Positions 9,018-58,038 of a DNA stretch of 64,000 nucleotides are shown here, one piece after another (position 1 is the first letter of the stretch; every line of letters begins with the position of its first letter). Both the position numbers and the translations under genes were made by a program. A model generated the notes under the pieces. That model was not told the DNA's origin, made no database searches, and worked only from the letters and a program-made list of their open reading frames with translations. The DNA is from Clostridia bacterium (lineage in GTDB: Bacteria > Bacillota > Clostridia > RUG12999), in the NCBI GenBank assembly GCA_022801925.1, contig JAAWTG010000006.1, positions 1 to 64,000 of the forward strand. Reading direction: 5' to 3'.

Positions 9018-9044
9018 CGTCTTTTCCTCCTTTATGATTGCCGT

Positions 9045-9917: not shown

Positions 9918-9933
9918 AACGATTTCCTCCCCC

Positions 9934-10884: not shown

Positions 10885-10921
10885 CGTTTTTTCTTCCTTT
10901 CATTTTCATAGCGCCGGATTC

Positions 10922-12505: not shown

Positions 12506-12517
12506 TTTCATTTCCTC

Positions 12518-42600: not shown

Positions 42601-44038
42601 TCCTTGCTTCCTGTCCCTCAAAGTTTATTGTCCATGCACCGGTATTGTTCGTGTCCAGCGTATAAATAATCTTGTTCTTTCTATCATTGGGTGAGCCATT
42701 ACTCTGGACAACCCTTGTATCTCCGGTTGCAATCCAAACATTTGCATTGGAAGTCGTTAAACTGACGCCGGCACCTTTTGCAAGCGAACCGCCGGCTTTC
42801 TTGGAAAAGCCGACCGCCGCCAACTGTGTGGTCACATGAGGTTTCACTTCCAACTCCAACTGATATTTTCCGAACAGTTCATCTGTATAGATCGCGCTGC
42901 GCGTTGCCGCGTCATAGGGCACGGCATAGATTTTCAGCGGGTGGTTCATGGTTATCTTTTCAGCATTATCGCTGCTGTTTGCCACCGTTTTTGTCATCTT
43001 CAACGCGCCGTCTTCAATCGTATGTTTCGTCATCGTTTCCGTCTCACTTGAAACAATCCAGCCTTCCGCCATGTTGGTTTCCGTATCAATGACAGTATTT
43101 TCATAGGTTTCACTGAATATCAGTGTCGGCTCAACCGGAGACGGTGACGGGCTCGCGCTCGGGGAAGCTGAAGGCGACACCGTCGGAGACGTTGTTGGAG
43201 AAGACGATGGTGAGGTTGTGGGAGAGGTTGATGGCACCGGGTCTACGCTGGTATCCGGCGGCGTAGTCGGGTCTTCCGTTCCGTTCCATTCATAGACCTT
43301 AATGCTTCTCAGCTGCACATAGTCATCTTGGCTGAGATAATTTTTAAACTCACATTTTAGCGTACGGATATCAACGCCGCCCCAACTCGGATTGTACGGT
43401 CCGCCCAACTTTGTTTGGTTGCTTGTTCCTTCATAAACCGAAAACGCGCCGGTGGATGTATCCAAAATATATCCAAATGCATAAGGCTGTCCTTTTGTGT
43501 GGCTTCCCAAATCATTAGCATAATCTGCGCCATTGTTAGCCGCATTTCCTTTGTTAATATTAAATTTAGACGAATTACTGTTAAAAACAAAGGCGCTATG
43601 TGTTCCGTTCTCTGTTCCATTTGCTTTCTTTCCGGCACACGATGCAAAAAGCTGTGCGTTTTTACCCGCAACAGTCTTCATACCATCTACAACAGTCACT
43701 TCAAAATAGTATTTTTTAGCGCTGTCCATGATGAAATCCTGACCGTCTTTTTTCAGCGGCACTTCAAATTTCAACTGATCGCCGGCAGCCGAGTAGTTCC
43801 CATCCGCCTTTGCTTTTACTTGCAAATAATTTTCCGTTGTAGAGGTGATTTCCAAATTTGCATTCCCTGCCTGCGTCACAGTATATTCACTCTCGCCGCT
43901 TCCAAGCTGCATATTCAAAACCTGTGTCCACTGCGATTCCTCACTTCCGCCTTCTTCTGCCATCACCGGTATCATGCTGCCTATGACGGATACCATCATC
44001 ACCAAAGACAGCAGTAAACTAATACTTCTTTTTTTCAT
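39617..44038 (-). CDS. SLH-anchored multidomain adhesin-like protein (1473 aa)
   Basis: Signal peptide (1-27), an N-terminal beta region (about 35-250) and a low-complexity Pro/Ser/Thr linker (about 255-300, repeats of SPTTSPSS and SASPSP type), a second concanavalin-like region (300-530), two atrophied bacterial Ig domains (about 540-720, ALTWTTSNAAAISATGAVT and TITWTSSDTTVMNNDGTIV), another beta domain with GHGYTYVCRPTLS, a further Ig-like segment (KVTWTSSKPEVVGNDGKLG, about 960), an F5/8-type-C domain at about 1015-1150 (NLALNQKASSNVGSKKG, RYLRFRV), a Gly-rich linker and three SLH modules at about 1290-1473. No catalytic motif is evident. It looks like a large wall-bound glycan-binding or adhesion protein working beside the lyase encoded 12 bases downstream. 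Confidence 0.8.
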   Translation of the reverse strand: MKKRSISLLLSLVMMVSVIGSMIPVMAEEGGSEESQWTQVLNMQLGSGESEYTVTQAGNANLEITSTTENYLQVKAKADGNYSAAGDQLKFEVPLKKDGQDFIMDSAKKYYFEVTVVDGMKTVAGKNAQLFASCAGKKANGTENGTHSAFVFNSNSSKFNINKGNAANNGADYANDLGSHTKGQPYAFGYILDTSTGAFSVYEGTSNQTKLGGPYNPSWGGVDIRTLKCEFKNYLSQDDYVQLRSIKVYEWNGTEDPTTPPDTSVDPVPSTSPTTSPSSSPTTSPTVSPSASPSASPSPSPVEPTLIFSETYENTVIDTETNMAEGWIVSSETETMTKHTIEDGALKMTKTVANSSDNAEKITMNHPLKIYAVPYDAATRSAIYTDELFGKYQLELEVKPHVTTQLAAVGFSKKAGGSLAKGAGVSLTTSNANVWIATGDTRVVQSNGSPNDRKNKIIYTLDTNNTGAWTINFEGQEARTMDQNWGGLAGIYLGLKPSNNKDDSIAIYSSKIYETENYKQAETAALAAIFENLTIDKLTDTPDAVVEDLKSLPSSVGGKALTWTTSNAAAISATGAVTRPIGDDVDVVLTAKMSDSGIDMYKEFHLTVGAITDPLQILEAAAEKLTMADLTDEDPDEITANLKSLPQTGAFGTTITWTSSDTTVMNNDGTIVKLGDNAKLPVTMTATFSFGGKTLQKTFDLKMGVNFMNGLYTLYETDFSGSDIAANIEQVPGVGKIKQEGGKLLLDRTGTSGGTGTTVRIYPALGDEKLKITGEMIVEADVHLPAACEKVEIIPYDDAGNRIFTIYSGKAGGGHGYTYVCRPTLSESPTHPRVDVATADLTLKIKARFNLKTKRLTLEVADDGTENYKTLVSNKFIREEATNLSYIEINGVDNSVEGKKYNNTGIVEINKVKVIVNKGYVPQYIVDNVDYYSAITKLKGFVSGDIALNTKALPGTKVTWTSSKPEVVGNDGKLGTITEDVDGIVMTFRLEMLDDPQNYIEKVFDPLKAVHIPEGNLALNQKASSNVGSKKGSGPESAVDGNVGTNWETAKWTNTEDPALTIDFGQVQVFNQIMLKEAMILDTYPLRKFVLESSVDGKNYTQLATGGTLGEALQFISVNQTLARYLRFRVTEKVATSNVGLAEIQVFLTGGEETKVTADLLALKYQLGSLMGLTANVDLPQTGALYGSKFVYASSDTSALMNDGTVVRPSTTKSGTLRVEAFAKTGDTYSPTKGGEDSYPFSVQGLGGGNGGTPVGNRPSGGSGGGGGGIGAALPTTPSVNSPVGNETGSQTTGSFRDVPRDYWGYNYIETLKSHQIVNGDENGNFNPEAQITREEFLKMLMNALGIAINDIKDVNLTDVSGSDWCYPYIAKAMELGIVSGTTETTFGTGSNITREDMAVMSTRALAAVKRTLTQMENEKTFTDDGQISGYAQDSVQQMQQAGIIGGYADGSFGPQQNATRAEAAKIICGMMN

Positions 44039-44055: not shown

Positions 44056-46776
44056 CTATCGAATCACAACAATCGCACGTACCGTTGCGCTGTTTGCCGT
44101 TGCGCTGACAAATATCTTGTCATATCTCTGGCGAATTTGTTTGATGTCGCCCAGTTCTGCTCTCTTTTCACTGCTGTCATAGATAAATACCGGAGGTCCA
44201 CTGCTACGCGTCACTTCATAGCTTGCTTCCTTGCCGTCTCCGTCTGCACTGAAATCGCATCTTAGCGTATGCACCCAACGGTTTTTATCCTCTGATACCT
44301 GATTGAAGTCTGCGTCTGCCAAATAGCCGCAGAAGGTTTCATAGTCGCCGCGTTCGTCCATTCGACCGATTGCCGGTTCCGTCCGGAAGCTGCCCAGCAC
44401 TTTCACTGCATCTATCCGGTCGCGCACGTCCAATGAATAGGAGATCAAATCTCCGTTTTTCACTTCGTTAAACTGGCTCTGATCCGTGATGTCCTCCGAT
44501 ACCAGAAATTCTGATTCTTTTCCTTCCGTTATCATTGTCACTTTTTGAATCGTATCACCGGCTTCATTTGCCGTCTTGCTGATTTTGTTCACAAATCCAA
44601 CTTTGCTGGAGGTGGTAACAACGCCGGGATTTCCTGCTTTCATGTTCATGGTTACCACAATCAAATCCACCGCATGGGTATCGTCGTTCACGTCATATCC
44701 TGTTACTGTATATTCCTGACCGTTGTTCATTTCTATGTTCACCAGATAGTCTTGCTCTGTCGGGTTTGCATTGTTTTCCGGATCCGGAATACAAATCGTC
44801 ATAGTCTGTTCACTCACGCCAAACGCGCCGCCCTGCGATTTTCCGAATGTCCGTTCATAGGAATTGTAATACTTTTTGTCATAGGTATTCACGGCTTCCG
44901 GAAAGGTGATTTCATTGATTTTACCCTGTGCATTTGTTTTATACGCAATGACCTTACCGCGCAGTCCCGACAAAACGCCGGAACTGATTCGTTTCGTCAC
45001 CAGCACCATATTGCCGTCCTCGTTTGCTTCCAGTCCGGTTACGGACGCTCTGTCTGCAATGTCCAGCACGCGCACTTCTTTGTTCTTACATGCAATTTTC
45101 GCAATGCTGGTGTTCGCACCGCCTGATTCATTTTCCACTTCTTCTATTTTTTCCGCCAACGTGTCCGGAATCAAGGCACGAATCTGATATTCCGCGCTCA
45201 TCGACTGTCCCGCCGAGGTTTCTACAATATAGGCATAGTTATCTGCCTGTTCTTTTTCTATGTAGACTACTTCATTCAAATAGTTGATATATGCAAGCAC
45301 TTCCTGACCAACTACCGCCGTCTCCAAAATGCTCTTATTTTCGCAATCAAAAACTTCTTCTCCAATGGTGATGGTTTCATCGTTTACTTCATTGATTTTG
45401 CCCTTCACCTGTTTGCTGCTGTGCACCACTTCCGTGTTCATACCATCATCAGCCGTAAAGATACTCAAAACATCATCTTTTTTGATAATTTCCGGAGAAA
45501 TGGCATTTCCTTCCGCATCTGTCAGTGTCACGATTTTTTCCTTGTCGTCCGGCGCTAATTCCAAATCTTTGCGTCCGCCAATCATGAAACCGTCTTTGAA
45601 ATACACTGTCCAATTGTTTTTCATAACATCTTCCACAATAACGCTGTCATGTGATTTCACAAACACCACTTCCATAACGTCGTCATTGTCGTTATCAATC
45701 AGCACCAAACTGCCGTGATCCAAATTCAACAGGTTCTCCGCCGTCCAAGTGCTTTGCCGGCGGTTATTTAAAATATACATGGTTTCGCCGTTCACACTGA
45801 GTTGTTCATAGGCACTGCTATTTTCTCCTGTATAGTAGGAAATCTTTGAACCGGATATTTCTTTGATGTCGTTCAAATCCACTTTCCAGCTCTGATTTTT
45901 GATGTTGGGCTTCATGTCCTGAATGACTTCTTTGCCCGTACTTTCATCTTCATAAACAAAGAAATCTACCCACTGTCCTGCATATTGTTTGAAAGAGGGG
46001 TCTTTCACTTCATAAAGTTTTCCGTTAATTTCAATCTGGTCTTTCGTGATTGTGGCAATGGGCGCCAGCAGCCATGTATCAACGGTTGCTGTTACAATCC
46101 CTGTCATTTTCATCAGATTGCCTTCGCTTTTGTCCGTCAAATCATTCCGCAGCGTCTTCCCTATCGACACTTCGTATCTTGTGGTCCTTCCGCCGCCGGT
46201 CACTACCATCATGTCAATATCCAACGCGTTATATACCAGACGAGCCACTTCACCGCGCGTCAGCGGAATCTGCGTCTGTCCCAAATTTTTCAGCAGTCCG
46301 ATTTCTGACGCCTGCATCATATATCCCGTCGGAAATCCGCCTTTTGCATTTGCTACCGTACTATATCCCAGCGTATTCACTAAAATTTTACAAGCTGCTT
46401 CTACCGTGATGTTTGCTTCCGGTTCAAATGTTGTTGCACTTGTTCCTTCAATCACGCGCAGTCCGCTGAGCATGTTGATATATCCCGCTGCCCAATGGCT
46501 CGCCGGTACGTCTGCAAACCTACCTTCTTCCGCAGACAGCGATGTGACATCTTCCAGCCCCATCAGCCGAATCACAATCGCCGTAAATTCCGCGCGGGTC
46601 ACCGGCTGTTCCAGTTCCATATTTCCGTTCTCGTCTCCGACCATAATTCTCAGAGACTGCAAATCGAACATGACCGTATCCATATCCGATTTTGCGGACG
46701 CTACCAGCCCAGACATCATTGTCGTGAGCATTGCAACTACTAAAACCATTGATAATACAATGTTTCTTTTTTTCAT
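44056..46776 (-). CDS. SLH-domain surface protein of unknown function (906 aa), paralogue of 4859-7345
   Basis: Signal peptide (1-26, VASA-K), SLH modules at the N-terminus (about 28-190: QPVTRAEFTAIVIRLMGL, SHWAAGYINMLSGLRVIEG, ANITVEAACKILVNTLGYS) and then about 700 residues of beta-rich sequence with the acidic block LIDNDNDDVMEVVFV near residue 355, matching LIDNDNDGTYDVVSVY in the 828-residue protein. No enzyme motif recognised. ATG 46776 has GGAGGAG upstream; the frame extends 44 codons further without a site. First gene of the three-gene operon, driven from 46820-46848. In both polysaccharide loci such a protein is encoded upstream of a heparinase-like lyase, which argues for a shared job. 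Confidence 0.8.
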   Translation of the reverse strand: MKKRNIVLSMVLVVAMLTTMMSGLVASAKSDMDTVMFDLQSLRIMVGDENGNMELEQPVTRAEFTAIVIRLMGLEDVTSLSAEEGRFADVPASHWAAGYINMLSGLRVIEGTSATTFEPEANITVEAACKILVNTLGYSTVANAKGGFPTGYMMQASEIGLLKNLGQTQIPLTRGEVARLVYNALDIDMMVVTGGGRTTRYEVSIGKTLRNDLTDKSEGNLMKMTGIVTATVDTWLLAPIATITKDQIEINGKLYEVKDPSFKQYAGQWVDFFVYEDESTGKEVIQDMKPNIKNQSWKVDLNDIKEISGSKISYYTGENSSAYEQLSVNGETMYILNNRRQSTWTAENLLNLDHGSLVLIDNDNDDVMEVVFVKSHDSVIVEDVMKNNWTVYFKDGFMIGGRKDLELAPDDKEKIVTLTDAEGNAISPEIIKKDDVLSIFTADDGMNTEVVHSSKQVKGKINEVNDETITIGEEVFDCENKSILETAVVGQEVLAYINYLNEVVYIEKEQADNYAYIVETSAGQSMSAEYQIRALIPDTLAEKIEEVENESGGANTSIAKIACKNKEVRVLDIADRASVTGLEANEDGNMVLVTKRISSGVLSGLRGKVIAYKTNAQGKINEITFPEAVNTYDKKYYNSYERTFGKSQGGAFGVSEQTMTICIPDPENNANPTEQDYLVNIEMNNGQEYTVTGYDVNDDTHAVDLIVVTMNMKAGNPGVVTTSSKVGFVNKISKTANEAGDTIQKVTMITEGKESEFLVSEDITDQSQFNEVKNGDLISYSLDVRDRIDAVKVLGSFRTEPAIGRMDERGDYETFCGYLADADFNQVSEDKNRWVHTLRCDFSADGDGKEASYEVTRSSGPPVFIYDSSEKRAELGDIKQIRQRYDKIFVSATANSATVRAIVVIR

Positions 46777-46819
46777 ACAGCTCTCCTCCATTTTGCTTTG
46801 TTGATTAGCACTTATCTTT

Positions 46820-46848
46820 ATTATAACATTCAAATGCCCAAATCTCAA
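46820..46848 (-). promoter_or_regulatory. promoter of the three-gene surface operon
   Basis: TTGAGA and TATAAT with a 17-base spacer on the minus strand, about 44 bases before the start of the 906-residue gene. Confidence 0.75.
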
Positions 46849-46894
46849 TTGGCAATTCAGGATTTTTGATTTGCAATTTCGGTTTTTTTTGATA

Positions 46895-46941
46895 CGCAAA
46901 AACGGCACTCCCCTTTTATCCTAAAAGGAAAATGCCGTTTT
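46895..46941 (-). terminator. intrinsic terminator after the GH95-like gene
   Basis: Stem AAAACGGCA/TGCCGTTTT with an inner CCTTTTA/TAAAAGG helix on the minus strand and a short T-run. It is 126 bases past the GH95-like stop; the space between holds nothing I recognise. Confidence 0.7.
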
Positions 46942-47066: not shown

Positions 47067-49961
47067 TTATGAGAATACATGGTGTTTATTGCAAACAATC
47101 GTATGCACCTTCCATGCTTTCTCCGCTTCCAATTCTATCCGCAAGAGTCCATCTTGTTCATGCAAAACAGGCAAAATGCAGCCTGCATACGTTCCCCGCG
47201 CAGTATGCGCTTCACGCCGCACACCGCCGCACACAATTGTCATATCACACCGTTCGCTGCAGCCTATGAAGATATCATATTGTCCGCGCGGCAAGTCCAG
47301 CAAAAAGACCGCCGGCTTATCGCTCACCAGATAACGCTGTTCCAGCCGCTCATCCCCCTGCACCGCCAGACCTATCGCTTCCGCCTGTTCAAATCCATAT
47401 CCTTTGCGCGCGGTATACGTTTCGTTTTCCCAAAGCACGGTCATGGGCAATCCCAGCCGCCGCTCTTCTTCCGGCAGCCGTTCTTCTTCCCAGCCCATGC
47501 CAAAAAACCAGACTGTCCGCTTGCGGTGGCGCGTATCCGCCACATAATGGTCGCATACAAAAGCGTCAAACGCCCGTTCATAGTCTGTGTTTTGGTTTTT
47601 TCCTGCATAAATGCGTGCGCCTGTGTGACCGGTATAACACAGCGGTATCTCTGTACGCCGCAAAAGCGGCGCCGCGCCGCCAAATACATATCGTTTTCCC
47701 GCTTCCGGTTCCAGTACCAGAATTTCATTCTCCCACCGGCATGCGATATCCCCCGGCAGCGTCAATCCTTGTATATTCCGCAAACGAACCGTGCCGCAGC
47801 GGCGGCAAAACAACTCTATTCGCACTGTTTTTCCGTCTTTCCGCCATGCGGACACCTCCACGCCGTCTTTTGCCAACAACCGCTCAAATGCGCAATCCCG
47901 CCATGTTTCAGGCAATGCCGGAAATACTTCTATCATGCCATCGCCGCTGCTTTGCAGCAGCAATTCTGTCACCGCGGCAACCGTTTCTCCGGTGCATTCC
48001 ATCATTGCCGGATAATACATCGGCGGTTTGTTCACCAAGCATAAATTCAGCCAGCGGTTTGTTTCTTCCGCCCCCAATCCGTTCGCGCGCAAATGCAAAT
48101 CATATCCTTTTTCATAGAGCGTACGCAATGCCAGTTCGCCCAGTCCCATACGCGCCGCCGCACATGCCAGCCAGCCGAATCCAAACACCCCCAGTTCCGT
48201 ATGGTCTATCGCATAGCGCACCGTTGCTTCCGCAATGTCCCGCTGATTCTGCGGACTGAATCTGTTCCATTCCTCTGCCGGAAAGATTGGCATGAGCAGC
48301 GACGGGTGCCGCAAATGAATACCGGGCGCCGCTTCATGGGAATCTTTTAAAATAACGCCGTAATTTTGATATTCCGCCGTTTCATATTCCGGCAAACGCG
48401 CCAAAAGCGCGCTGCATACCTCTGCCATACCATCATCTGTCCGTAAAATTTCCGCCGCCCGCCGCGTGAAACGGAACAAATATTTTAGGCTGGCAATGGT
48501 AATCGCCACATTATGTCCCAGCGGTCCCTGTTCCGGCGAAATGTCAGGAAACACCTCATAGGTTCCCGCTTCATTTTGTTCCAACCGCGCCTGCCAAAAC
48601 TGCACCTGTTTCAAAAAATGCGGATATGCCTGCTGCCGCAAAAAAGTTTCATCTCCGCTGTATTCATATTGCCACCACAAAAACTGCGCGCACCACGGCC
48701 CTATACAGTTATAAAACGGGTGCGGATAGTCTCCCGCATAGCCAGGCAGCCCATGAAATTCCTCCGCAAAACGGATACCTTCCGTTTCGTGCTGCAAGAA
48801 TCCTTCGCAAAATACTTTTGACAATTCCAAATGATTTGCCGCATATGTCCCCCAGTAGGTCGCCTGAATATTCACATCCCAATACCACACGCTGCCCCAC
48901 AGCGTCAAATGGCGGATATCCCACAGTCCGTTCAGCCCACTTGCCTGTTCCCGCCGCGCACCGCCGCGGCCGCTGCAACATTCCAACACATATAAATGCA
49001 AATACCAAAGATTCTCCAAAAAGGCGTCCGGTAAAATGACGGAAGACTTTGCAAAAAACGTCTCCCAATGACGTTCGTGCGCCGCGCACCGTTCCGGCAA
49101 CGCCTGTGCATCCCGTCCGCTTTTTCCCTCCGCGGCGCGCCGGCAATCCTCCTGCTCCAATTCCGTTGCCACGCTGACCAGCACGTCAAATTCCTGCGCC
49201 GCTTCCAATAGTTCAATTTCAATTTTATCGCCGCATTGTATGGCTTTGCCCGCCGCGCCAAGCAGCCGCAGCGTCGCACAAAACCGAAACGGTTCGTCCT
49301 GCGGATAGGCTTCCCAGCCAAACGACTGACACACAGAAAACACATTGCCGCTCTGCTGTTTCAAAACAGGCTTTGTGTCTTTGCTGTTTCTGCCGCGCGG
49401 CACTTCAAATATCAGCTTTGAAACGGTTCCCTGCTGCGCCTGACGAATATGGCACACCAGCGAATCTGTTTGCTGCAAGACCTTTACGGTTGTTTCCACA
49501 AAATAAATGCCATGGTGCAGCCGGTAGGAAACCGCCGCCCGTTCCACCGATAGGCACATGTCCCGCTCCCAACCGTCCGTCTGCGGCGCATAGCAAATCT
49601 GAAGGTCTCCCACTGCCGGCAGACTTTCTCCCTGCGCCACATGTAGGCGTTTTCCTTCCTGCGGCGAAAACAGCACCTTTTGATATGCCATTGGCGGCTG
49701 TTCCGCTGCCAGCGCCGCTTTTGCGTGCTGCACAACATTTTCTTTTGTATCGCCGCCCGCCTTGTGATAGTGCCGCTGCGTTTTTTGCGCGGTGCGGCTA
49801 TAGTCCGGCAGCCCGCTGTAATACACCTCGTAATGGTTCATGGACAGCCGCATATGCCGGTCTTGCAAATATGCCATTGCGCCAAACGTCCCGTTTCCCA
49901 GCGGCAGCGCTTCCGTCCAATGTACCGCCGCATTTTCATAGCGAATTCCATGCCCCTCCAT
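47067..49961 (-). CDS. GH95-like glycoside hydrolase, intracellular
   Basis: 964 residues, no signal peptide. N-terminal beta-sandwich with WTEALPLGNGTFGAMAY near residue 14 (the family entry block), an alpha/alpha-barrel with NGLWDIRHLTLWGSVWYWDV near 350 and PWCAQFLWWQYEYSGDETF near 430, and a C-terminal beta region. This is the plan of GH95 (alpha-fucosidase or alpha-galactosidase). Since GH95 and related clan members act on other sugars too, only the clan is secure. It starts with AGAGGAG 7 bases before ATG 49961; an upstream GTG overlaps that site. It lies 17 bases after the ECF S component, so it would be co-transcribed with the cobalamin operon, which is an odd place. Confidence 0.75.
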   Translation of the reverse strand: MEGHGIRYENAAVHWTEALPLGNGTFGAMAYLQDRHMRLSMNHYEVYYSGLPDYSRTAQKTQRHYHKAGGDTKENVVQHAKAALAAEQPPMAYQKVLFSPQEGKRLHVAQGESLPAVGDLQICYAPQTDGWERDMCLSVERAAVSYRLHHGIYFVETTVKVLQQTDSLVCHIRQAQQGTVSKLIFEVPRGRNSKDTKPVLKQQSGNVFSVCQSFGWEAYPQDEPFRFCATLRLLGAAGKAIQCGDKIEIELLEAAQEFDVLVSVATELEQEDCRRAAEGKSGRDAQALPERCAAHERHWETFFAKSSVILPDAFLENLWYLHLYVLECCSGRGGARREQASGLNGLWDIRHLTLWGSVWYWDVNIQATYWGTYAANHLELSKVFCEGFLQHETEGIRFAEEFHGLPGYAGDYPHPFYNCIGPWCAQFLWWQYEYSGDETFLRQQAYPHFLKQVQFWQARLEQNEAGTYEVFPDISPEQGPLGHNVAITIASLKYLFRFTRRAAEILRTDDGMAEVCSALLARLPEYETAEYQNYGVILKDSHEAAPGIHLRHPSLLMPIFPAEEWNRFSPQNQRDIAEATVRYAIDHTELGVFGFGWLACAAARMGLGELALRTLYEKGYDLHLRANGLGAEETNRWLNLCLVNKPPMYYPAMMECTGETVAAVTELLLQSSGDGMIEVFPALPETWRDCAFERLLAKDGVEVSAWRKDGKTVRIELFCRRCGTVRLRNIQGLTLPGDIACRWENEILVLEPEAGKRYVFGGAAPLLRRTEIPLCYTGHTGARIYAGKNQNTDYERAFDAFVCDHYVADTRHRKRTVWFFGMGWEEERLPEEERRLGLPMTVLWENETYTARKGYGFEQAEAIGLAVQGDERLEQRYLVSDKPAVFLLDLPRGQYDIFIGCSERCDMTIVCGGVRREAHTARGTYAGCILPVLHEQDGLLRIELEAEKAWKVHTIVCNKHHVFS

Positions 49962-49978
49962 TTGCTTTCTCTCCTCTG

Positions 49979-50689
49979 TCACAATTTTTTGACTGTTCTA
50001 TTGTCTTTGGGCGGCGCCGCCAATCCGTATTTATACGCCGCCCGCCCCAAAATTTTCTGCCATGTGCCGCCACAAACCGCCAATAGTAGTACATTGCACA
50101 CGCCGTGCGCCGCATCCATGGGAAAACTTGTGATACAGGACGCAATAAATCCCACGCCAAACGACGCACCGTCCAGTTCTGCGAGATACCAGAGATTCAT
50201 CATCCAACCGAACACCAGTCCCCACGCGAAAGCATATATCATCTGCGGTATTTTTCGCCGCAGCAGCCATGTATCGCGCAGCAGTCCTGTCACATAGCCC
50301 ATCATACCCCACAAAAACATTTGCCACGGCGTCCATGGCCCCTGTCCCAAAAACAAGTTAGAAGCCACTGCCGCCACCGCGCCAATCATGAAACCGCTTT
50401 CGCCGCCCAGCACCAGCGCGGACGCCATAATCACAAATGAAGTGGGCTGTACGCTGGGAATCGCGCCAAACGGCACGCGACTAACCGCCGCCACCGCTGC
50501 CAACACGCCCACCAGCACCACTTCCTCCGTCTGCACCTGCCGTCCCTCAAACCGTACCAAAAACGGAAGGGCGCATACGGCTATCATCGCAAAACTGAGC
50601 AGCAAAAACATGCCGTCCAGTTTCACTGCCAGCACCATCAGACCCGCGCACGCCACAAAACATACAATTGTCAGCCATTTCTGTTTCAA
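49979..50689 (-). CDS. ECF transporter S component, probably for cobalamin or a related corrinoid
   Basis: 236 residues with about six hydrophobic segments. The central block SVQPTSFVIMASALVLGG and GQGPWTPWQMFLWGMMGY is typical of one group of substrate-binding S components. Its start is TTG with GGGAGGA 6 bases upstream, and the last four bases of the EcfA stop overlap it, so the two are translationally coupled. The neighbouring EcfT, fused EcfA and DUF4430 proteins, and the cobalamin riboswitch on the other side of the promoter, point to corrinoid uptake. The specificity is inferred from context, not read from the S component. Confidence 0.82.
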   Translation of the reverse strand: MKQKWLTIVCFVACAGLMVLAVKLDGMFLLLSFAMIAVCALPFLVRFEGRQVQTEEVVLVGVLAAVAAVSRVPFGAIPSVQPTSFVIMASALVLGGESGFMIGAVAAVASNLFLGQGPWTPWQMFLWGMMGYVTGLLRDTWLLRRKIPQMIYAFAWGLVFGWMMNLWYLAELDGASFGVGFIASCITSFPMDAAHGVCNVLLLAVCGGTWQKILGRAAYKYGLAAPPKDNRTVKKL

Positions 50690-52227
50690 TGCTGTTCCTC
50701 CCGCAATTTATCATACGCCGTTGTATAAAAATAATTGTCCGCAAAAAATTCCGCCATCGTCTGCTGCGCTGTGATTCCGCCGCCGAAAAGCATAGCGCAG
50801 CGGTCTGCACTGCGCTCCGCAAACGCAATGTCATGCGTCACCATCAGAATGGTTTTGCCTTCCTCTTTCAGCTGCCGCAGCAACTCCGCCAATTCTTCCT
50901 TAAACGCCGCATCCATGCCTTTTGTCGGCTCGTCCAGCAGTAAAATCGTGGGACGCTGCAACAATACGCTCAGCAGCGCCGTCTTTTGCTGCTGCCCGCC
51001 GCTGAGGTCATAGGGGTGTCTGTCCAGCACTTCCTCCAGTCCAAATCTCCGCACCAGCCGTTCCGTTTCCGCCGCGTCATATGTACCGATTTCCTTTGCA
51101 TATTCATAAATTTCGCCGCGCACGGTGTCATGCGTGAAATGCAGCATGGGGTTTTGCGCCAAATAGCCCAGCCGCTGGCCGCCCTTTATTTTCATCTTGC
51201 CGCGCTGCGGTTTTTCCAGCCCAAGCAAAAGTTTCAGCAGCGTTGATTTTCCTGCGCCGTTCGCACCCATCAGCGCCAACAGTTCCCCTTGATACAACGC
51301 CAAATCCAAATCTTGCAGCACCGCCGGCGCATGTTTTTCATATCGAAAGAAAATACCGCGGCAGTTTAACACCTGCTCTGTTCCCGCGGGCGCAGTCCGT
51401 TTTCGGCGGCTGCCTGTCACGCCACGCTGCCGCGCTTCTTTTACCGTAAACGGTACGCCGCCCTGTTTTCCGCTTTCCAAAAACCAAGCGGACACCTGCG
51501 GCACAAAAAGCCGCAGTTCCGGTTTTTCATAGAGCGCGCGACAAACCGCTTCGGGCGCGCCTTGCGCAAACACCCGTCCGTCCTGCAAGAACACCACTTT
51601 GTCCGCCAGAGCAAACACGTCCTCCGTATGATGTTCCGCAATGAGCACCGTGATACCGAATTCCTCGTTCACCTGTTTTAAAAACTGCAAAAAAGACCGC
51701 GCCGCCACAGGGTCAAGCTGCGCCGTCGGTTCGTCCAGCAAAATCATGGCGGGACGCAGCAGCAACACCGACGCAAGCGCCACCATCTGTTTTTCTCCGC
51801 CCGACAGCGCCTGAATCGGTTTGTCCATGAGATGTTCCATACCGAAAAAACTCACCATTTCCGCAATTCGCCGCCGCATTTCACTTACTTGCGTCTGCTG
51901 GTTTTCCAGCGAAAATGCCAATTCCTGCCACACGCTGCCCGTCACGCATTGCGCGTCCGGGTTTTGAAACACCATACCGATTTCCCGCACCGTGTTCTCG
52001 CCATAGGCGTCAAGCGGTTTCCCGCGATAGTATATAATTCCGCTTTGCTGCCCTGCCGGACGGATTTCTTTTTTGAGCTGCCGCAGCAGCGTGGTTTTTC
52101 CGCTGCCCGTTGTTCCGCAAAGCAGCACAAACGCACCTGCTTCCACATCAAAAGAAATGTCCTGTAAAACAGGACTTTGAGAAAGCGCAAATGCAAAAGA
52201 CAAGTGTTCTATTTGAAGCAGCGCCAT
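50686..52227 (-). CDS. energy-coupling factor ATPase, two fused ABC domains (EcfA1-A2)
   Basis: 513 residues. Domain 1: Walker A LLCGTTGSGKTTLL near residue 35, signature ALSGGEKQMVALA near 150, Walker B PAMILLDEPTAQLDP near 165. Domain 2: Walker A MGANGAGKSTLLKLL near 320, signature DLSGGQQQKTALL near 405, Walker B PTILLLDEPTKGMDA. Both sites look intact. It supplies ATP hydrolysis for the module with EcfT and the S component. ATG 52227 lies inside the end of ecfT (19-base overlap), with GGAGG 10 bases upstream. The frame is open for another 100 codons before it, but that stretch is the ecfT gene in another frame. Confidence 0.92.
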   Translation of the reverse strand: MALLQIEHLSFAFALSQSPVLQDISFDVEAGAFVLLCGTTGSGKTTLLRQLKKEIRPAGQQSGIIYYRGKPLDAYGENTVREIGMVFQNPDAQCVTGSVWQELAFSLENQQTQVSEMRRRIAEMVSFFGMEHLMDKPIQALSGGEKQMVALASVLLLRPAMILLDEPTAQLDPVAARSFLQFLKQVNEEFGITVLIAEHHTEDVFALADKVVFLQDGRVFAQGAPEAVCRALYEKPELRLFVPQVSAWFLESGKQGGVPFTVKEARQRGVTGSRRKRTAPAGTEQVLNCRGIFFRYEKHAPAVLQDLDLALYQGELLALMGANGAGKSTLLKLLLGLEKPQRGKMKIKGGQRLGYLAQNPMLHFTHDTVRGEIYEYAKEIGTYDAAETERLVRRFGLEEVLDRHPYDLSGGQQQKTALLSVLLQRPTILLLDEPTKGMDAAFKEELAELLRQLKEEGKTILMVTHDIAFAERSADRCAMLFGGGITAQQTMAEFFADNYFYTTAYDKLREEQH

Positions 52228-53075
52228 TTCTGCCATTCCTCCAATTCCAGCCAGACCGGCGTGATAAGGTAGCATCCGTAGAGCAAACAGGCGGTTGCCG
52301 GTTTCACGCCCCACAAAATCGAATCCATGCGCGGATACACGGAAAAGACCAGTCCGCCTGACAAACGCAGATACAAAAGCGCCGCGCCTGTCAGGACAAA
52401 AAAGCCGCACAGCAGCGCATCTTCCCGCCGAAAGCGGTAGGGAAAATAAAACGTCCGTTTTCTGTGCAATCCATAGCCCCGCGCCCGCATAGACTGCGCC
52501 GCCAGCAGCGCGTCCTCCAGCGACCACGAAACCAGCGCGCCCAGTTCCCGCGCGCCGCGGCTTATCCTTCGGCGCAAACCGCCCCGTTCTTCTTTATATT
52601 TCAGCCGGTGGACGGCGTGCAATTGCCGCGCCCGCTGCCGCAGCACCGGTATCTCCCGCATACAAAGCAGCAGTGCAAAGGTTGTTTTTTGCGCCGCCCG
52701 CGAGAACAAATACATCCATTTATCTGCATCCAAATAAACATTTCCTGCTAAAAATGCCAGCAATACAGATAGCAGAGACAATGCCAGCAGTCCGCCATAG
52801 ACCACCGATTCCAGCGTCACAGGATTTTCCCACAGAGTGAACAGCACAATCCGTCCCCGATGGGAAAACAGCGGATTGATGAGCAAAAACATTGCCGCCA
52901 GAATCAACATCATACCCAGATTGCGTTTCATCTGCCGCCCGCCGTCCAAAAGTCCGTTCACCAGCACCAGCAGTATCACGGATTCCGCCAAAACGACAGG
53001 GTGCAGCCACAGCATGGGGACTGCCGCCGTGCCTGCCAGATAAAGCAGACATGTGATAGGGTGCCGCTGTTTCAA
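52209..53075 (-). CDS. energy-coupling factor transporter transmembrane protein EcfT
   Basis: 288 residues. Membrane spans near both ends and a cytosolic coupling region with AAQSMRARGYG, the A-R-G coupling motif that contacts the ATPases. Another helix RISRGARELGALVSWSLED precedes it. With the fused EcfA and the S component it completes one ECF importer. TTG 53075 is chosen because GGAGGT is 7 bases upstream; a GTG at 53084 is in the site itself. It is 39 bases after the DUF4430 lipoprotein. Confidence 0.9.
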   Translation of the reverse strand: MKQRHPITCLLYLAGTAAVPMLWLHPVVLAESVILLVLVNGLLDGGRQMKRNLGMMLILAAMFLLINPLFSHRGRIVLFTLWENPVTLESVVYGGLLALSLLSVLLAFLAGNVYLDADKWMYLFSRAAQKTTFALLLCMREIPVLRQRARQLHAVHRLKYKEERGGLRRRISRGARELGALVSWSLEDALLAAQSMRARGYGLHRKRTFYFPYRFRREDALLCGFFVLTGAALLYLRLSGGLVFSVYPRMDSILWGVKPATACLLYGCYLITPVWLELEEWQKWRCFK

Positions 53076-53114
53076 CTGCTCCACCTCCGTTTCTGTCTGT
53101 TTTTGGTTCTTCTG

Positions 53115-53795
53115 TTAAATGCCGCCGCCGACATCTTTTCCCAGTTCCAGCGTATAAATCCAGCGCACTTCATCACCGGCATTCAGTTTCATCTGCCCCG
53201 CACTGCGCTGCACAAAATTCCCGTTTACTTCCACCATCCAGCCGCTGCCCGCGCCGCGGTCAAATTCAAACAAATTGTCAATCCCCTCCACATAAGGGCT
53301 TTTGCTGCCGCCCGACGCGACTACCGGAATCCCTGCTTCTTTTGCCACGCGGCGCAGCACGGTATATGCCGTATCGCCGTCCTCCAACGCCACAGCCGTC
53401 CGGCTGATGACGCTGGTACTATCGCTTGGAATTTCCACAGACAGATAGACCACTTTTTCCTGCGTCGGTGCTTGTACCGGCTGCTGCTCTGCCGCAGGCT
53501 GAACGGACGGTACAGCAGGCTGAACGTCTCCCTGCGCCGCCGGTTTTGCCGCATTACTGCCCGCTTCCGCCGGTTTTTGCGTTGCTGCCGAACCGAGCGG
53601 CTGCTGCGATTGCTGTGATTCTGCCGCTTCCGGCGCAGTTTCCGTTTGCTGCGGCGGTTCCTCTGTCGGCGCGCCGCCCTGCTCCGTCACGGTCGGTGAC
53701 GGGTCAGGCTGCGACTCCGGTTCCTGTTTCCCGCACCCTGCCGCAAACAGCATACATAGGCATAAAACGCCCGTTATCCATTGTTTTTTGTTCAA
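53115..53795 (-). CDS. DUF4430-domain lipoprotein, transcobalamin beta-domain-like
   Basis: 226 residues. Lipoprotein signal with lipobox LFAAGC, a long Pro/Gln/Ala/Glu linker (about 25-125) and a C-terminal DUF4430 domain (about 130-226) ending with GSGWMVEVNGNFVQRSAGQM and DEVRWIYTLELG. DUF4430 is the family of the C-terminal beta-domain of intrinsic factor and transcobalamin (Transcobalamin-like C-terminal). TTG 53795 is selected because TTGAGGTG precedes it. It lies 30 bases after the alpha/alpha-barrel SLH gene and before EcfT, so it is probably the membrane-held corrinoid-binding partner of the transporter. Confidence 0.85.
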   Translation of the reverse strand: MNKKQWITGVLCLCMLFAAGCGKQEPESQPDPSPTVTEQGGAPTEEPPQQTETAPEAAESQQSQQPLGSAATQKPAEAGSNAAKPAAQGDVQPAVPSVQPAAEQQPVQAPTQEKVVYLSVEIPSDSTSVISRTAVALEDGDTAYTVLRRVAKEAGIPVVASGGSKSPYVEGIDNLFEFDRGAGSGWMVEVNGNFVQRSAGQMKLNAGDEVRWIYTLELGKDVGGGI

Positions 53796-53825
53796 CTCAA
53801 ACACCTCAATCCATGGAACCAAATT

Positions 53826-55349
53826 CTATTTCTGCCCTTGCAGCCGCATTCCCACAACCGCCACCATTTCCCGCGTCACGGTTCCCTGCGGGTCAAAATA
53901 TCCGCCGTCTCCCTGCATGATTCCTGCCTGATAGACGGTATAAACGCCTGTTTTTGCCCATGCCGATATATCCGCATCGTCCGCTAACCGCGCTGATTCT
54001 GCTGTCTCAAACAATCCGCTGCGGCTTAAAAACACCGCCATTTCCTCTCGCGTCAGCGGGTCGTTCGGGCGGAAAGTATCTTGCGTATTCGGCGTAATCA
54101 GTCCGCCAGCCGCCGCGTTTTTCAGTTCCTCATAAAACCAATCTGATTTTGTCACATCAGCATATAAATCGGTCGGCTCTGTCTGCCCCGCTTCCGGCTG
54201 GTATGCCAAAATGCGCACCAGCAACGCCAAAAATTCCGCGCGGGTAATCGGTTTTTGCGGCGCAAAACTGCCGTCCGTATACCCTTTCACAATGCCCTGC
54301 TGCACTGCCTGCACAATAGCGTCCCGCGCCCAGTCCGACGCCGCTTCCAAATCGGTAATCTCCACCTGTGACGGTGCTCCTCCTGCAGCATATTTTCGCT
54401 GCACGTCCCGCAAGTCAAACAATCCCGCCTTGCCGCCCCGCAGCCGCTCCCACGCACTCAAGGCATAAAGCACCTGCGTCGTCGCCATTTCGTTGGCTTC
54501 GGTATCCGTCATGAGATAGCGGAATCCGCCCTCCGGCGCGGCGCTGTCTGTTAAATAATCCACTATCGTGCGTCCCTGTTTGATAAACCGCGCGTCCTGT
54601 GTCGGGTCGATTCCCACGGCGCACAGCGCGGTCAGCACCTGCGCCGCGCTCATGCTGTTTTCTACACCCATTCCGGCGTAGCCCGCCGTGTCCAGCTGCA
54701 CTTCTGCCAACCAATTTATCGCTTTTTCCACTGCCGCCGCTGCTGTCTCTTGCTGTCTGTGCGGTGCAAGCGCAGTGACTGCCGCCGCGGTTAAATCCAC
54801 ATCCGCGCCAAAGTTATCGGTAAAGACAAAATATCCTTTTTCCTTTTGCAGCGCGCATATTTTTTCCACCAGCTTGTCCGCCGTCCACAGCGCGTCCGCC
54901 GGCAAGGAATAGTCTTCGCTGTCCAGTGCCAGCAAAGTATATATGTATCCGTTCAGTCCTTGTTTTTCCACCAAATCGCTTTTGCAAAGTTCCCCAATCA
55001 AGTCCACACCCGTAACATTACGTGCGTCATATCCCAATGCATCGGCAACCAGCGCCATACGCGCATAATCCGTGGCATAGGTCAAATGGCCTCTTGCACT
55101 GATGGTCTCCTGCAAATAGGTCCCCATGCGCTGCATGTGCGCTTCCGCCGGTAAATCTGCCGCGCCGCTGCGTGCAAGCGCAAACAGGTTCCAGTCCGCA
55201 TTGGAGGAATATTCCTCCTCCTGCGCCATCAGATAGGACTGTGCTTTTTGCGCCACGCCCAATTCCTGCGCCTGCACGCCAAAAGCTCCCCATAATAGTA
55301 TCATGCATAAAATAAATGCCATTTTTCTCATGCGGCAAATTCGTTCCAT
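53826..55349 (-). CDS. SLH-anchored alpha/alpha-barrel protein, transcobalamin alpha-domain-like
   Basis: 507 residues. Signal peptide (1-28, VQA-Q), then about 270 residues of paired helices with repeats of the prenyltransferase/squalene-cyclase type (DLTAAAVTALAPHRQQE, MSAAQVLTALCAVGID, MATTQVLYALSAWERL), ending in a variable region and three SLH modules at about 325-507 (GIVKGYTDGSFAPQKPITR, DTFRPNDPLTREEMAVFL). An alpha6/alpha6 barrel is also the alpha-domain of intrinsic factor and transcobalamin. No catalytic DxDD or zinc-ligand set of prenyltransferases is visible. ATG 55349 has GGGGAAGGA upstream. First gene of the minus-strand cobalamin operon. Function in corrinoid binding is inferred. 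Confidence 0.8.
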   Translation of the reverse strand: MERICRMRKMAFILCMILLWGAFGVQAQELGVAQKAQSYLMAQEEEYSSNADWNLFALARSGAADLPAEAHMQRMGTYLQETISARGHLTYATDYARMALVADALGYDARNVTGVDLIGELCKSDLVEKQGLNGYIYTLLALDSEDYSLPADALWTADKLVEKICALQKEKGYFVFTDNFGADVDLTAAAVTALAPHRQQETAAAAVEKAINWLAEVQLDTAGYAGMGVENSMSAAQVLTALCAVGIDPTQDARFIKQGRTIVDYLTDSAAPEGGFRYLMTDTEANEMATTQVLYALSAWERLRGGKAGLFDLRDVQRKYAAGGAPSQVEITDLEAASDWARDAIVQAVQQGIVKGYTDGSFAPQKPITRAEFLALLVRILAYQPEAGQTEPTDLYADVTKSDWFYEELKNAAAGGLITPNTQDTFRPNDPLTREEMAVFLSRSGLFETAESARLADDADISAWAKTGVYTVYQAGIMQGDGGYFDPQGTVTREMVAVVGMRLQGQK

Positions 55350-55383
55350 TGTTCCTTCCCCTTTCCGACCAAATTCTTTTCCC

Positions 55384-55412
55384 AGTATATCATCATCTTT
55401 TTCCAAAGTCAA
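55384..55412 (-). promoter_or_regulatory. promoter of the minus-strand cobalamin operon
   Basis: TTGACT and TATACT with a 17-base spacer. The transcript would begin about 30 bases before the alpha/alpha-barrel gene, leaving no space for a riboswitch. The same two hexamers are used on the plus strand at 55450-55478. Confidence 0.75.
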
Positions 55413-55449
55413 CCGCCATTCTTTGATTTATTTTTTTTGCTTTTTTGTC

Positions 55450-55478
55450 TTGACTCTTTTCTGCGGCTGTGATATACT
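55450..55478 (+). promoter_or_regulatory. promoter of the riboswitch-controlled gene
   Basis: TTGACT and TATACT with a 17-base spacer on the plus strand, about 20 bases before the riboswitch. Hexamers and spacing are identical to those of the divergent operon promoter 38 bases away. Confidence 0.75.
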
Positions 55479-55499
55479 GGTAATCACTATTGGAAATAT

Positions 55500-55690
55500 G
55501 AATTAGCGTGCGGTTTGCTTTTCGTCACAGAAAAGCGTTCAGGGAATACGGTGAAAATCCGTAACAGTCACTGCTACTGTAAGGAAGGACAACCTTTGCA
55601 AAAATCCACTGGCAGCTACCATGCCGGGAAGGGGCGAAGGAAGGATGAATTCCGAGTCAGGATATCTGGACCGTTCGTTTGGCACAAATA
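55500..55690 (+). promoter_or_regulatory. cobalamin riboswitch
   Basis: The core is visible in order: AGGGAATACGGTGAAAATCC, CAGTCACTGCTACTGTAA, then the second helix area with CACTGGCAGC...GCCGGGAAGG, and GAATTCCGAGTCAGGATATC at its end. It lies in the 5' leader of the DUF4430-SLH gene, and a terminator at 55767-55796 is the likely expression platform, so the gene should be shut off by adenosyl- or methylcobalamin. Exact ends are approximate. Confidence 0.93.
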
Positions 55691-55766
55691 CCTTCTGTGT
55701 AAAGGGCATCGTGCGAATGGACAAGGACGATAAAACGTCCGGTCTATCACTCCAGATACGCACTAT

Positions 55767-55796
55767 GCCGGTTCTTAAGACAGAACCGGCTTTTTG
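55767..55796 (+). terminator. riboswitch expression-platform terminator
   Basis: Stem GCCGGTTCT/AGAACCGGC (loop TAAGAC) with TTTTTG, placed 70 bases after the riboswitch core and 40 bases before the gene. A formed hairpin would stop transcription when cobalamin is bound. Confidence 0.85.
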
Positions 55797-55836
55797 TATT
55801 TCTATTTCACTATCCATTTTAAGGAGGATTCATTTT

Positions 55837-58038
55837 ATGAAAACCAAATCTACCTTACTGCACAGAGCATGTCCATTGCTGGTGCTGTTCACTTTATTTT
55901 GTTCGCTTTTTGCAGGTTCTATTGCCGCGGAAGAACAAACGATAAGCATCCAGATTGCCGTTGCGGGACAGTCGGACAGCGGTTTTACTTTCCTGTCCCA
56001 ACCGGCAGCTGTCGAACTGGAAAGCGAAAATGCTAATGTATTTGCCGCTTTACAGACTTCCGGTATCACCTATGAAGCAACCGGCAGCTATGTGACTTCC
56101 ATTTTGGGACAAGCTGCTTCCGGCATGGACGGCTGGCAGTTTACCATCAATGACACGCTTGTTTCTGTTGGCGCACAGCAAGCGGCGCTCTCTGACGGTG
56201 ACGTTGTTCTATGGATTTATACCAAAGGCAGCAACGATTATCTCATGCCGACTTGGGAAGCTATGACCGGTACTGCACCGGCAAACAAAACAGAGTCCGA
56301 AGCGCTTATTGGCGACGGCACGGGCGTTACACTGGACGCGGACGGCTCATTGCTGACGCTTTCCACTGCGCCTGCATCTATTACATACGCCAGCGCGGGC
56401 ATTGGCGGCAGCGTGTTGTCTCAGGCATATCTGACCAAAGATGTACCGCTGGTTGTCAAAGACTATTCGCTGACCAATGTAACAGGAACCCCCACCAATT
56501 TGCAGCTTACTTTAACAGAGGACGGTATTCTGGCGGCGCCCGCTGACCCTGAAAAACCGGTTCAGGTTGACGCATTTTTGCTGCAGGCGGACGGCATGGT
56601 TTTCCGTCCCACCTCGATTACCTATACGCCGCAGACCGTTTCGGCGGAAATCAGCGTTCAGTTTGCCATTGCGGGTCAAGATGACAACGGATTTTCTTTC
56701 CTTGTTCAGCCTGCTCCGCTCACTTTGACAGCTGAGCAGCCACAGACCGTGCTTGGCACTTTAATTGCTTCCGGCACGGAATATGAAGCGACAGACGGTT
56801 TTGTCACCTCTGTAAACGGCATTGCAGCGGAAGGCATGGACGGCTGGCAGTTTCATGTCAATGACACGCCGGTTGCCACAGCGTCGGACAAAACCGCTTT
56901 GCAGCAAGGCGACACGGTTCTTTGGGTCTACAGCAAGGCGGATAACGGCTATCTCATGCCGACTTGGGAAGCCATGACCGGTACTGCGCCGGCAAACAAA
57001 CAGCAACCGGACGCAATGATTGGCGATGGCAAAACCATTCAGCTTTCCGATTCGGAAACCAAACTCACGCTTGACCCTGCGCCTGCTTCTGTGACATTTG
57101 CCTGCGCAAGTGCAAGCAGCAGCGTGTTGGCGCAAAGCTGGCTGACTGCCGGCGAGCCGCTCGTTTTAAAAACCTTTACTTTAGACAAACTTTCCGGTAC
57201 GGACACCAATTTGCAAGTCACGTTAAAAGACGGTGCATTCTATCTTGCGCCGGCAGATACCAAAAAAGCAGTAGATGTGAAACAATTCAGTCTGCAAGTT
57301 GATGGCGTGAACTATCGCGCTGCGGCGGTTTCCTACCAGCCAGCGACCAGTACGCCGACACCGACTCCAACTCCCACGCCCGGTCGTCCCAGCGGCGGCG
57401 GTCGCCCCAGTGGCAGCGGCAGCGGCGGTGGCGGAAGTGTTGTTGTGGTTCCGCCGACTTCCACGCCGGACACTTCTGCCGGCGGACAGCCTGCTCCAAC
57501 TCCCGCGCCCATTGGCACAGAATTTTCACAGTCGGATTGGTTCTATGCTCCGACGGTAGCGCTGATGGAGAAAAATATCATCAAAGGTGACGCGGATACC
57601 GGCGCGGTCCGTCCGAACGATACTATCAACCGCGAAGAAATCGCTTCTTTACTTGTATCTGCTTATGAGCTACCTGTTTTGACACATGAAAATGATTTTG
57701 CAGACAGCACCTCTTCCGATTGGGCGCTGGATTTGCTCTATACACTCAAAGAGCGCGGCGTGATGAACGGAGACGGCAGCGGTATGCAGGGACTGCAGCA
57801 GGCAACCCGCATGGATGTTGCTGTGCTGTTGGCGCGCATGGAAGGCATCACCTCTGCGGACACCGCTGTGTTAGACCGTTTCAGCGACGCTGCTTCCATT
57901 CCGGACTGGGCGCGCGCTTCTGTTGCCGCAATGGTGGAAAAAGGATATTTGTCCGGTTATGAAGATGGTACGCTGCGCCTGGAACAATCTATTTTGCGCT
58001 GCGAGACTTTTGCCCTGCTCTATCGCATGATTGGATAA
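55837..58038 (+). CDS. SLH-anchored protein with two DUF4430 units, B12-regulated
   Basis: 733 residues from ATG 55837 (TAAGGAGGATTCATTTT upstream; the frame is open into the riboswitch but has no start there). Signal peptide (1-31), then two copies of a unit of about 235 residues: DUF4430 (GMDGWQFTINDT and GMDGWQFHVNDT, then VLWIYTKGSNDYL / VLWVYSKADNGYL) followed by a second module beginning with LMPTWEAMTGTAPANK in both. A Thr/Pro and Gly/Ser linker (about 500-560) leads to three SLH modules (565-733). DUF4430 resembles the beta-domain of transcobalamin. Regulation by a cobalamin riboswitch makes a corrinoid-capture role at the wall likely. It is transcribed divergently from the ECF operon. 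Confidence 0.88.
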   Translation: MKTKSTLLHRACPLLVLFTLFCSLFAGSIAAEEQTISIQIAVAGQSDSGFTFLSQPAAVELESENANVFAALQTSGITYEATGSYVTSILGQAASGMDGWQFTINDTLVSVGAQQAALSDGDVVLWIYTKGSNDYLMPTWEAMTGTAPANKTESEALIGDGTGVTLDADGSLLTLSTAPASITYASAGIGGSVLSQAYLTKDVPLVVKDYSLTNVTGTPTNLQLTLTEDGILAAPADPEKPVQVDAFLLQADGMVFRPTSITYTPQTVSAEISVQFAIAGQDDNGFSFLVQPAPLTLTAEQPQTVLGTLIASGTEYEATDGFVTSVNGIAAEGMDGWQFHVNDTPVATASDKTALQQGDTVLWVYSKADNGYLMPTWEAMTGTAPANKQQPDAMIGDGKTIQLSDSETKLTLDPAPASVTFACASASSSVLAQSWLTAGEPLVLKTFTLDKLSGTDTNLQVTLKDGAFYLAPADTKKAVDVKQFSLQVDGVNYRAAAVSYQPATSTPTPTPTPTPGRPSGGGRPSGSGSGGGGSVVVVPPTSTPDTSAGGQPAPTPAPIGTEFSQSDWFYAPTVALMEKNIIKGDADTGAVRPNDTINREEIASLLVSAYELPVLTHENDFADSTSSDWALDLLYTLKERGVMNGDGSGMQGLQQATRMDVAVLLARMEGITSADTAVLDRFSDAASIPDWARASVAAMVEKGYLSGYEDGTLRLEQSILRCETFALLYRMIG

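Follow-up and report, generated by a model that had tools for sequence, protein, structure and literature searches.

Gene content and surface anchoring of the locus

The window, by which we mean the whole 64,000-nucleotide stretch of clostridial DNA that was analyzed, holds at 49979-55349 a minus-strand operon of five genes. In order of transcription, these encode an SLH-anchored alpha/alpha-barrel protein, a DUF4430 lipoprotein, EcfT, an EcfA with two ATPase domains and an S component (Table 1). The barrel and lipoprotein genes are 30 bp apart, and the final genes of the operon overlap by a few bases. On the opposite strand, a cobalamin riboswitch precedes a gene for a second SLH-anchored protein, whose two DUF4430 units share 52% amino-acid identity (repeat unit 711 nt). 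The original prediction had set out this split layout for 49979-58038, and we recovered every feature of it in place. The three DUF4430 domains of the window are all that the genome holds (2.95 Mb, 96% complete).

Table 1. Positions of the genes and regulatory features at the locus and the evidence for each.
Feature	Position	Strand	Evidence
Secreted alpha/alpha-barrel (transcobalamin alpha-domain-type) protein, C-terminal SLH anchor	53826-55349	-	SLH x3 (116.5 bits); AlphaFold model
DUF4430 lipoprotein (transcobalamin beta-type domain, membrane)	53115-53795	-	DUF4430 59.5 bits (cut-off 23.8); lipobox LFAAGC, Cys21
EcfT transmembrane subunit	52209-53084	-	CbiQ 24.2 bits, just below cut-off 25; position kept in relatives
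EcfA with two ATPase domains (EcfA1A2)	about 50686-52227	-	ABC_tran, 2 stretches; TIGR04520 above cut-off
CbrT-type S component	49979-50689	-	6fnp chain A match: profile E=1.5e-17, single sequence E=1.3e-9
Promoter-like site of the minus-strand operon	55384-55412	-	TTGACT-17-TATACT
Promoter-like site of the riboswitch-controlled gene	55450-55478	+	TTGACT-17-TATACT, extended -10; 10/12 matches
Cobalamin riboswitch aptamer (RF00174)	55496-55687	+	100.8 bits, full model 1-189, gathering 31.5
Intrinsic-terminator-like hairpin and T run	55767-55790	+	Between aptamer and ATG 55837
Secreted SLH-anchored protein, two DUF4430 units	55837-58038	+	DUF4430 80.9 bits (2 stretches); SLH x3, 58.5 bits; RBS AAGGAGGA before ATG

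The genome encodes a CsaB-type pyruvyltransferase (PF04230), and we found no Omp85 in it, so an outer-membrane setting was rejected. Both results fit the expected monoderm with SLH-anchored proteins. Hence, three SLH domains, a CsaB-type pyruvyltransferase and the lack of an outer membrane together mark SLH anchoring to the wall.

The surface encoded here is rich in SLH proteins, since five more SLH-domain proteins lie on the minus strand of the window (4859-7345, 7371-9017, 35426-39604, 39617-44038 and 44056-46908). Also on the minus strand, a GH95-like glycoside hydrolase gene (47067-49982) has 4 bases in common with the end of the S-component gene, and the two may be transcribed together.

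The riboswitch controls the two-unit SLH gene

The aptamer is the sole RF00174 match in the genome; it scores above the gathering threshold and is followed by a terminator before the ATG. The terminator hairpin is likely a transcriptional OFF expression platform. The riboswitch had been predicted to lie divergent from the operon and to control the SLH gene with two DUF4430 units, and this stood, with one refinement: the operon has a promoter-like site of its own, which is like that of the riboswitch-controlled gene and faces the opposite way. Since the riboswitch precedes and controls the plus-strand gene alone, the operon is outside its control, which we count against a B12 role for the operon. 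A minus-strand riboswitch for the operon was also considered and rejected, as a permissive scan of 55000-56000 (E up to 5) gave no second aptamer.

The gene set recurs in relatives

Among 148 relatives, 75 have DUF4430 and 117 have cobalamin riboswitches. For the matches listed, DUF4430 and a cobalamin riboswitch are no more than 10 kb apart in 18 of the 27 genomes that have both; by our own estimate, based on about two riboswitches per genome of 2-3 Mb, chance would give such proximity in a few percent per genome. A DUF4430 profile that covers a narrower, closer subset was also run against a collection in which each species is represented by one genome, and at least 580 stretches encoding relatives turned up. 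We took 80 of these loci, which come from Clostridia, many Paenibacillus, Flavonifractor plautii, Sporobacter, Sedimentibacter, Pelotomaculum and others.

The helical (barrel) gene lies directly upstream of the DUF4430 gene in 74 of the 77 loci with enough upstream sequence, and EcfT, EcfA and S genes lie downstream in 58 of the 64 with enough downstream sequence. An RNA scan of 16 named loci found a cobalamin riboswitch in 13, and 13 of 16 riboswitches stand directly before a helical or DUF4430 gene. Hence, the gene set is found again in Clostridia, Paenibacillus and some lactobacilli, and its occurrence beside cobalamin riboswitches, which the original prediction had suggested looking for in other Clostridia, was confirmed for Clostridia and Paenibacillus. 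Further cobalamin riboswitches precede other genes near the operon at L119:1355-1544 and at L088:4883-5413 (Butyricicoccus), the latter as a tandem pair.

The lactobacilli are represented by Latilactobacillus curvatus plasmid p1_CACC879, which has the same five-gene set at 7791-13433, its wall anchor being of the LPXTG/MucBP type rather than SLH. Identity to the window is 47% for the S component and, over the aligned parts, 30% for the helical protein and 32% for the DUF4430 protein. A cobalamin riboswitch is absent from this locus, which counts against a B12 role.

The helical protein has the fold of B12 carriers and lacks the catalytic motifs of enzymes with that fold

The N-terminal domain of the SLH-anchored barrel protein weakly matches alpha/alpha-toroid families, and AlphaFold models it confidently as an alpha/alpha toroid (pLDDT 93.4, pTM 0.93), the fold of the transcobalamin/intrinsic factor superfamily. 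In the PDB, this model matches protein prenyltransferase beta subunits, squalene-hopene-type cyclases and transcobalamin with similar scores, transcobalamin 2bb6 being at rank 11 (E=3e-4). Hence, the fold of the window domain alone cannot decide between them, which weighs against our interpretation; of the predicted structural likeness to transcobalamin, the toroid and its match to 2bb6 stood, and transcobalamin was not singled out.

Sequence comparisons were similarly divided. The window protein is below the cut-off of Pfam Cobalamin_bind (PF01122), as are most relatives, with matches in 4 of 148 genomes; both results count against kinship with the animal carriers. With 51.4 bits, the SLH protein of L046 scores about twice the cut-off of 25, and transcobalamins lead the PDB sequence matches of its helical domain taken alone (E from 0.016). 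Unlike this single sequence, a profile of SLH-type helical domains did not rank transcobalamin. Against the PDB, the helical profile matched squalene-hopene cyclases best, with haptocorrin (4kki) behind them at E=5e-4.

None of the 80 helical domains that we aligned has a complete DxDD acid motif, the mark of class II cyclases: position 160 is never D, and the residue after DxD is I, V, M, L, A, T or G in all 80. Nor does the alignment conserve a Cys/His set that would bind zinc. A true prenyltransferase or cyclase, which the original prediction had held the helical protein not to be, was therefore rejected, the fold being compatible and the catalytic motifs absent.

Asp185 of the window protein is conserved in 79 of the 80 domains. 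Aligned via L046, Asp185 and Asn231 fall on Asp176 and Asn224 of human transcobalamin, which we take to be cobalamin contacts. Gln273 of human transcobalamin is presumably another contact, and the invariant Gln292 of the window protein is a candidate counterpart. Counting against the window protein, a His shared by 69 of the 80 relatives is replaced by Tyr278 here.

DUF4430 and its natural fusions to the helical domain

Transcobalamins are known to have DUF4430 as their C-terminal part (PMC4350170). We found PF14478 in both the lipoprotein and the two-unit SLH protein of the window. As a profile, DUF4430 has the transcobalamin beta-domain as its best PDB match but insignificantly (E=0.11), which counts against the assignment. 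In most relatives the DUF4430 protein is apparently held by an N-terminal membrane helix, a simple lipobox pattern being present in 4 of 86.

Alpha and beta domains are encoded by separate genes in the window. Relatives including L060, L106 and L046 have both domains in one chain, and 27 of the 80 loci have at least one open reading frame that joins them, mostly for large SLH proteins. In L060, a single gene of 508 aa (helical plus DUF4430) replaces the two separate genes directly before EcfT, EcfA and S. Of the genetic evidence, this fusion points most strongly to joint action of the helical protein and the DUF4430 lipoprotein of the window.

We modeled the fused protein of L106 (434 residues) with AlphaFold (pLDDT 90.4, pTM 0.86). 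Entries for animal transcobalamin, intrinsic factor and haptocorrin fill the first 15 places among its PDB matches (E from 4.5e-10 to 4.2e-8); next come the transcobalamin beta-domain on its own, 5no0 (TM 0.75 by target length), and then 3u7z (TM 0.70 by target length). Hence, the transcobalamin-like reading mostly holds, and the predicted beta-domain fold of DUF4430 is borne out by this homologue. The global TM-scores of the L106 model to the B12 carriers are moderate (0.46-0.57), which counts against the likeness; at about 0.5, they imply that the domain orientation may differ from that in the animal proteins.

The transporter is of the CbrT type

The S component has CbrT of Lactobacillus delbrueckii (6fnp) as its best solved match. 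With the single sequence, the next S component follows at E=1.3; with a profile, CbrT is far ahead and the next S component is at E=0.015. Since CbrT was by far the best solved match, a riboflavin S component, as the Pfam name of PF07155 has it, was rejected, in line with the original prediction that the S component does not serve another vitamin. The S component is accompanied by a motor of EcfT and two EcfA domains, as in a CbrT-type ECF transporter. In relatives, S and ATPases are fused in one chain in 52 of 66 S-containing open reading frames, which suggests a dedicated transporter. L075:10748-13423 and 51 other open reading frames of relatives encode two EcfA domains and S in one chain of about 800-1050 aa. 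Tethering S to its ATPases departs from the usual picture of ECF transport, where the S component dissociates from the motor. SEED may list an 'additional lipoprotein component' among the roles of the cobalamin ECF transporter.

6FNP is the structure of ECF-CbrT, and CbrT is a proven importer of both B12 and cobinamide (PMC5997447). By homology of its S component, the window transporter is predicted to import cobalamin. The two systems differ in that here dedicated ECF genes share an operon with surface binders, and in the S-ATPase fusion of most relatives.

The genome was found to lack CbiC (corrin ring synthesis), CobS (cobinamide completion) and a FecCD-type permease (BtuC). From these absences we predict that the host, a gut-type bacterium, requires complete cobamides and has no further recognizable importer of the BtuCD type. 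It encodes a PduO-type adenosyltransferase and several proteins with B12-binding domains. One protein of the window, at 18475-20106 on the minus strand, combines a B12-binding domain with a CxxxCxxC motif of the radical SAM type and is a possible user of imported B12.

A proposed system for cobamide capture and import

We propose, with a probability of about 0.78, that the locus is a system for cobamide (B12) capture and import, in which bacterial members of the transcobalamin/intrinsic-factor superfamily are joined to a dedicated CbrT-type ECF transporter. This rests on gene content, conserved linkage, the riboswitch, the homology of fused relatives to the animal carriers, kinship of the S component with CbrT and the absence of CbiC, CobS and BtuC; corrinoid binding by each part, a split sandwich and the order of transfer are what we infer.

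In the proposed mechanism, the SLH-anchored alpha/alpha barrel would gather corrinoid at the wall. When B12 is scarce, the riboswitch would permit transcription of an extra wall binder, the SLH protein with two DUF4430 units. The membrane lipoprotein, which bears a further beta-type unit, would either complete a site with the alpha-barrel or take the ligand over. Most likely the binding would be as in intrinsic factor, with the corrinoid between alpha-barrel and beta-domain, here on separate chains, so that the ligand would bridge a wall partner and a membrane partner. Separated fragments of intrinsic factor assemble around cobalamin and provide a model for such a split sandwich. The corrinoid would then pass to the CbrT-like S component, with the EcfT/EcfAA motor driving import.

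It is less likely, though it merits serious thought, that the wall proteins and the lipoprotein are each complete corrinoid binders, of low or high affinity, which form a simple relay or buffer with no sandwich across chains. The riboswitch-controlled SLH protein of the window consists of two beta units with no alpha-barrel, and giant DUF4430-SLH proteins that lack a helical domain occur at many loci, as such a relay would have it. The alpha-barrel gene nevertheless adjoins the gene for the DUF4430 membrane protein almost throughout and is fused to it elsewhere, and this adjacency and fusion point to joint action.

The ligand could also be something other than complete cobamides, either another large tetrapyrrole or an incomplete corrinoid (cobinamide, cobyrate, heme). 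ECF-CbrT does take cobinamide too, and an ECF importer of heme is known (PMC7299338). We hold this improbable: many loci are under cobalamin riboswitch control, the genome has PduO and proteins of B12-dependent type, and the host, without CobS, could not finish cobinamide.

Least probable of all is a helical protein that has nothing to do with B12 and merely lies beside a CbrT transporter, being instead a structural component of the wall or an enzyme from the prenyltransferase/terpene cyclase superfamily, since for all the cyclases and prenyltransferases among the top profile and fold matches, and homologues publicly annotated 'terpene cyclase/mutase', the protein lacks the catalytic residues, is secreted, wall-anchored and kept in the operon, is elsewhere fused to DUF4430, and in the L106 fusion has B12 carriers alone as top matches.

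Relation to known B12 systems

Capture and import of cobamides, as proposed here, would combine a known kind of importer (ECF-CbrT) with capture proteins of the animal-carrier kind, split on a bacterial surface. To our knowledge, capture proteins of the transcobalamin kind have so far been described in animals. Animal transcobalamin, intrinsic factor and haptocorrin (PF01122 plus PF14478) share the alpha/alpha barrel and the beta-domain with the window proteins, at about 12-15% identity. They differ in that the window has these domains on separate, surface-anchored bacterial chains, which would feed an ECF transporter rather than receptor endocytosis.

BtuG of Bacteroides is not known to share the fold of the window proteins. 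It is likewise a surface lipoprotein that captures B12 before import and is encoded in a B12 locus, but it belongs to an outer-membrane TonB system and is found in Bacteroidetes only (PMC6143338). The predicted CbrUVT of gut Firmicutes, used as a marker of B12 uptake, is probably the same ECF class; in the accessible parts of those papers, the SLH, helical and DUF4430 proteins are not described (PMC6593275, PMC8123684). A literature search, with most subscription journals outside its range, returned no paper that joins DUF4430, transcobalamin and bacterial B12 uptake.

A wider hypothesis, which we hold tentatively and at somewhat less than even odds, is that in widespread monoderms the wall and membrane halves of a transcobalamin close on cobalamin and feed an ECF transporter, and that these surface proteins, or a bacterial ancestor common to both, gave rise to the animal carriers. 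Little work has addressed how Gram-positive bacteria of gut and soil collect B12 outside the membrane, while capture proteins are known from Bacteroides. If our proposal is true, hundreds of Clostridia and Paenibacillus genomes carry surface homologues of intrinsic factor, which bears on competition for B12 between microbe and host. The evolutionary origin of the animal B12 carriers would become testable, and a likely function would be at hand for DUF4430 and for proteins now annotated as terpene cyclases.

Two minor observations concern deposited entries. Stretches like the helical domain and/or DUF4430 were found by tblastn in a phage collection from human faeces (MT837027, MT835727 and MT839226); these entries are unannotated, are titled 'Bacteriophage sp.' and may be bacterial fragments. 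The bacterial structure that matched the DUF4430 part of the L106 model, 3u7z, is RUMGNA_00854 of Ruminococcus gnavus, deposited as a 'putative metal binding protein'; from this match, it may be a corrinoid-related protein.
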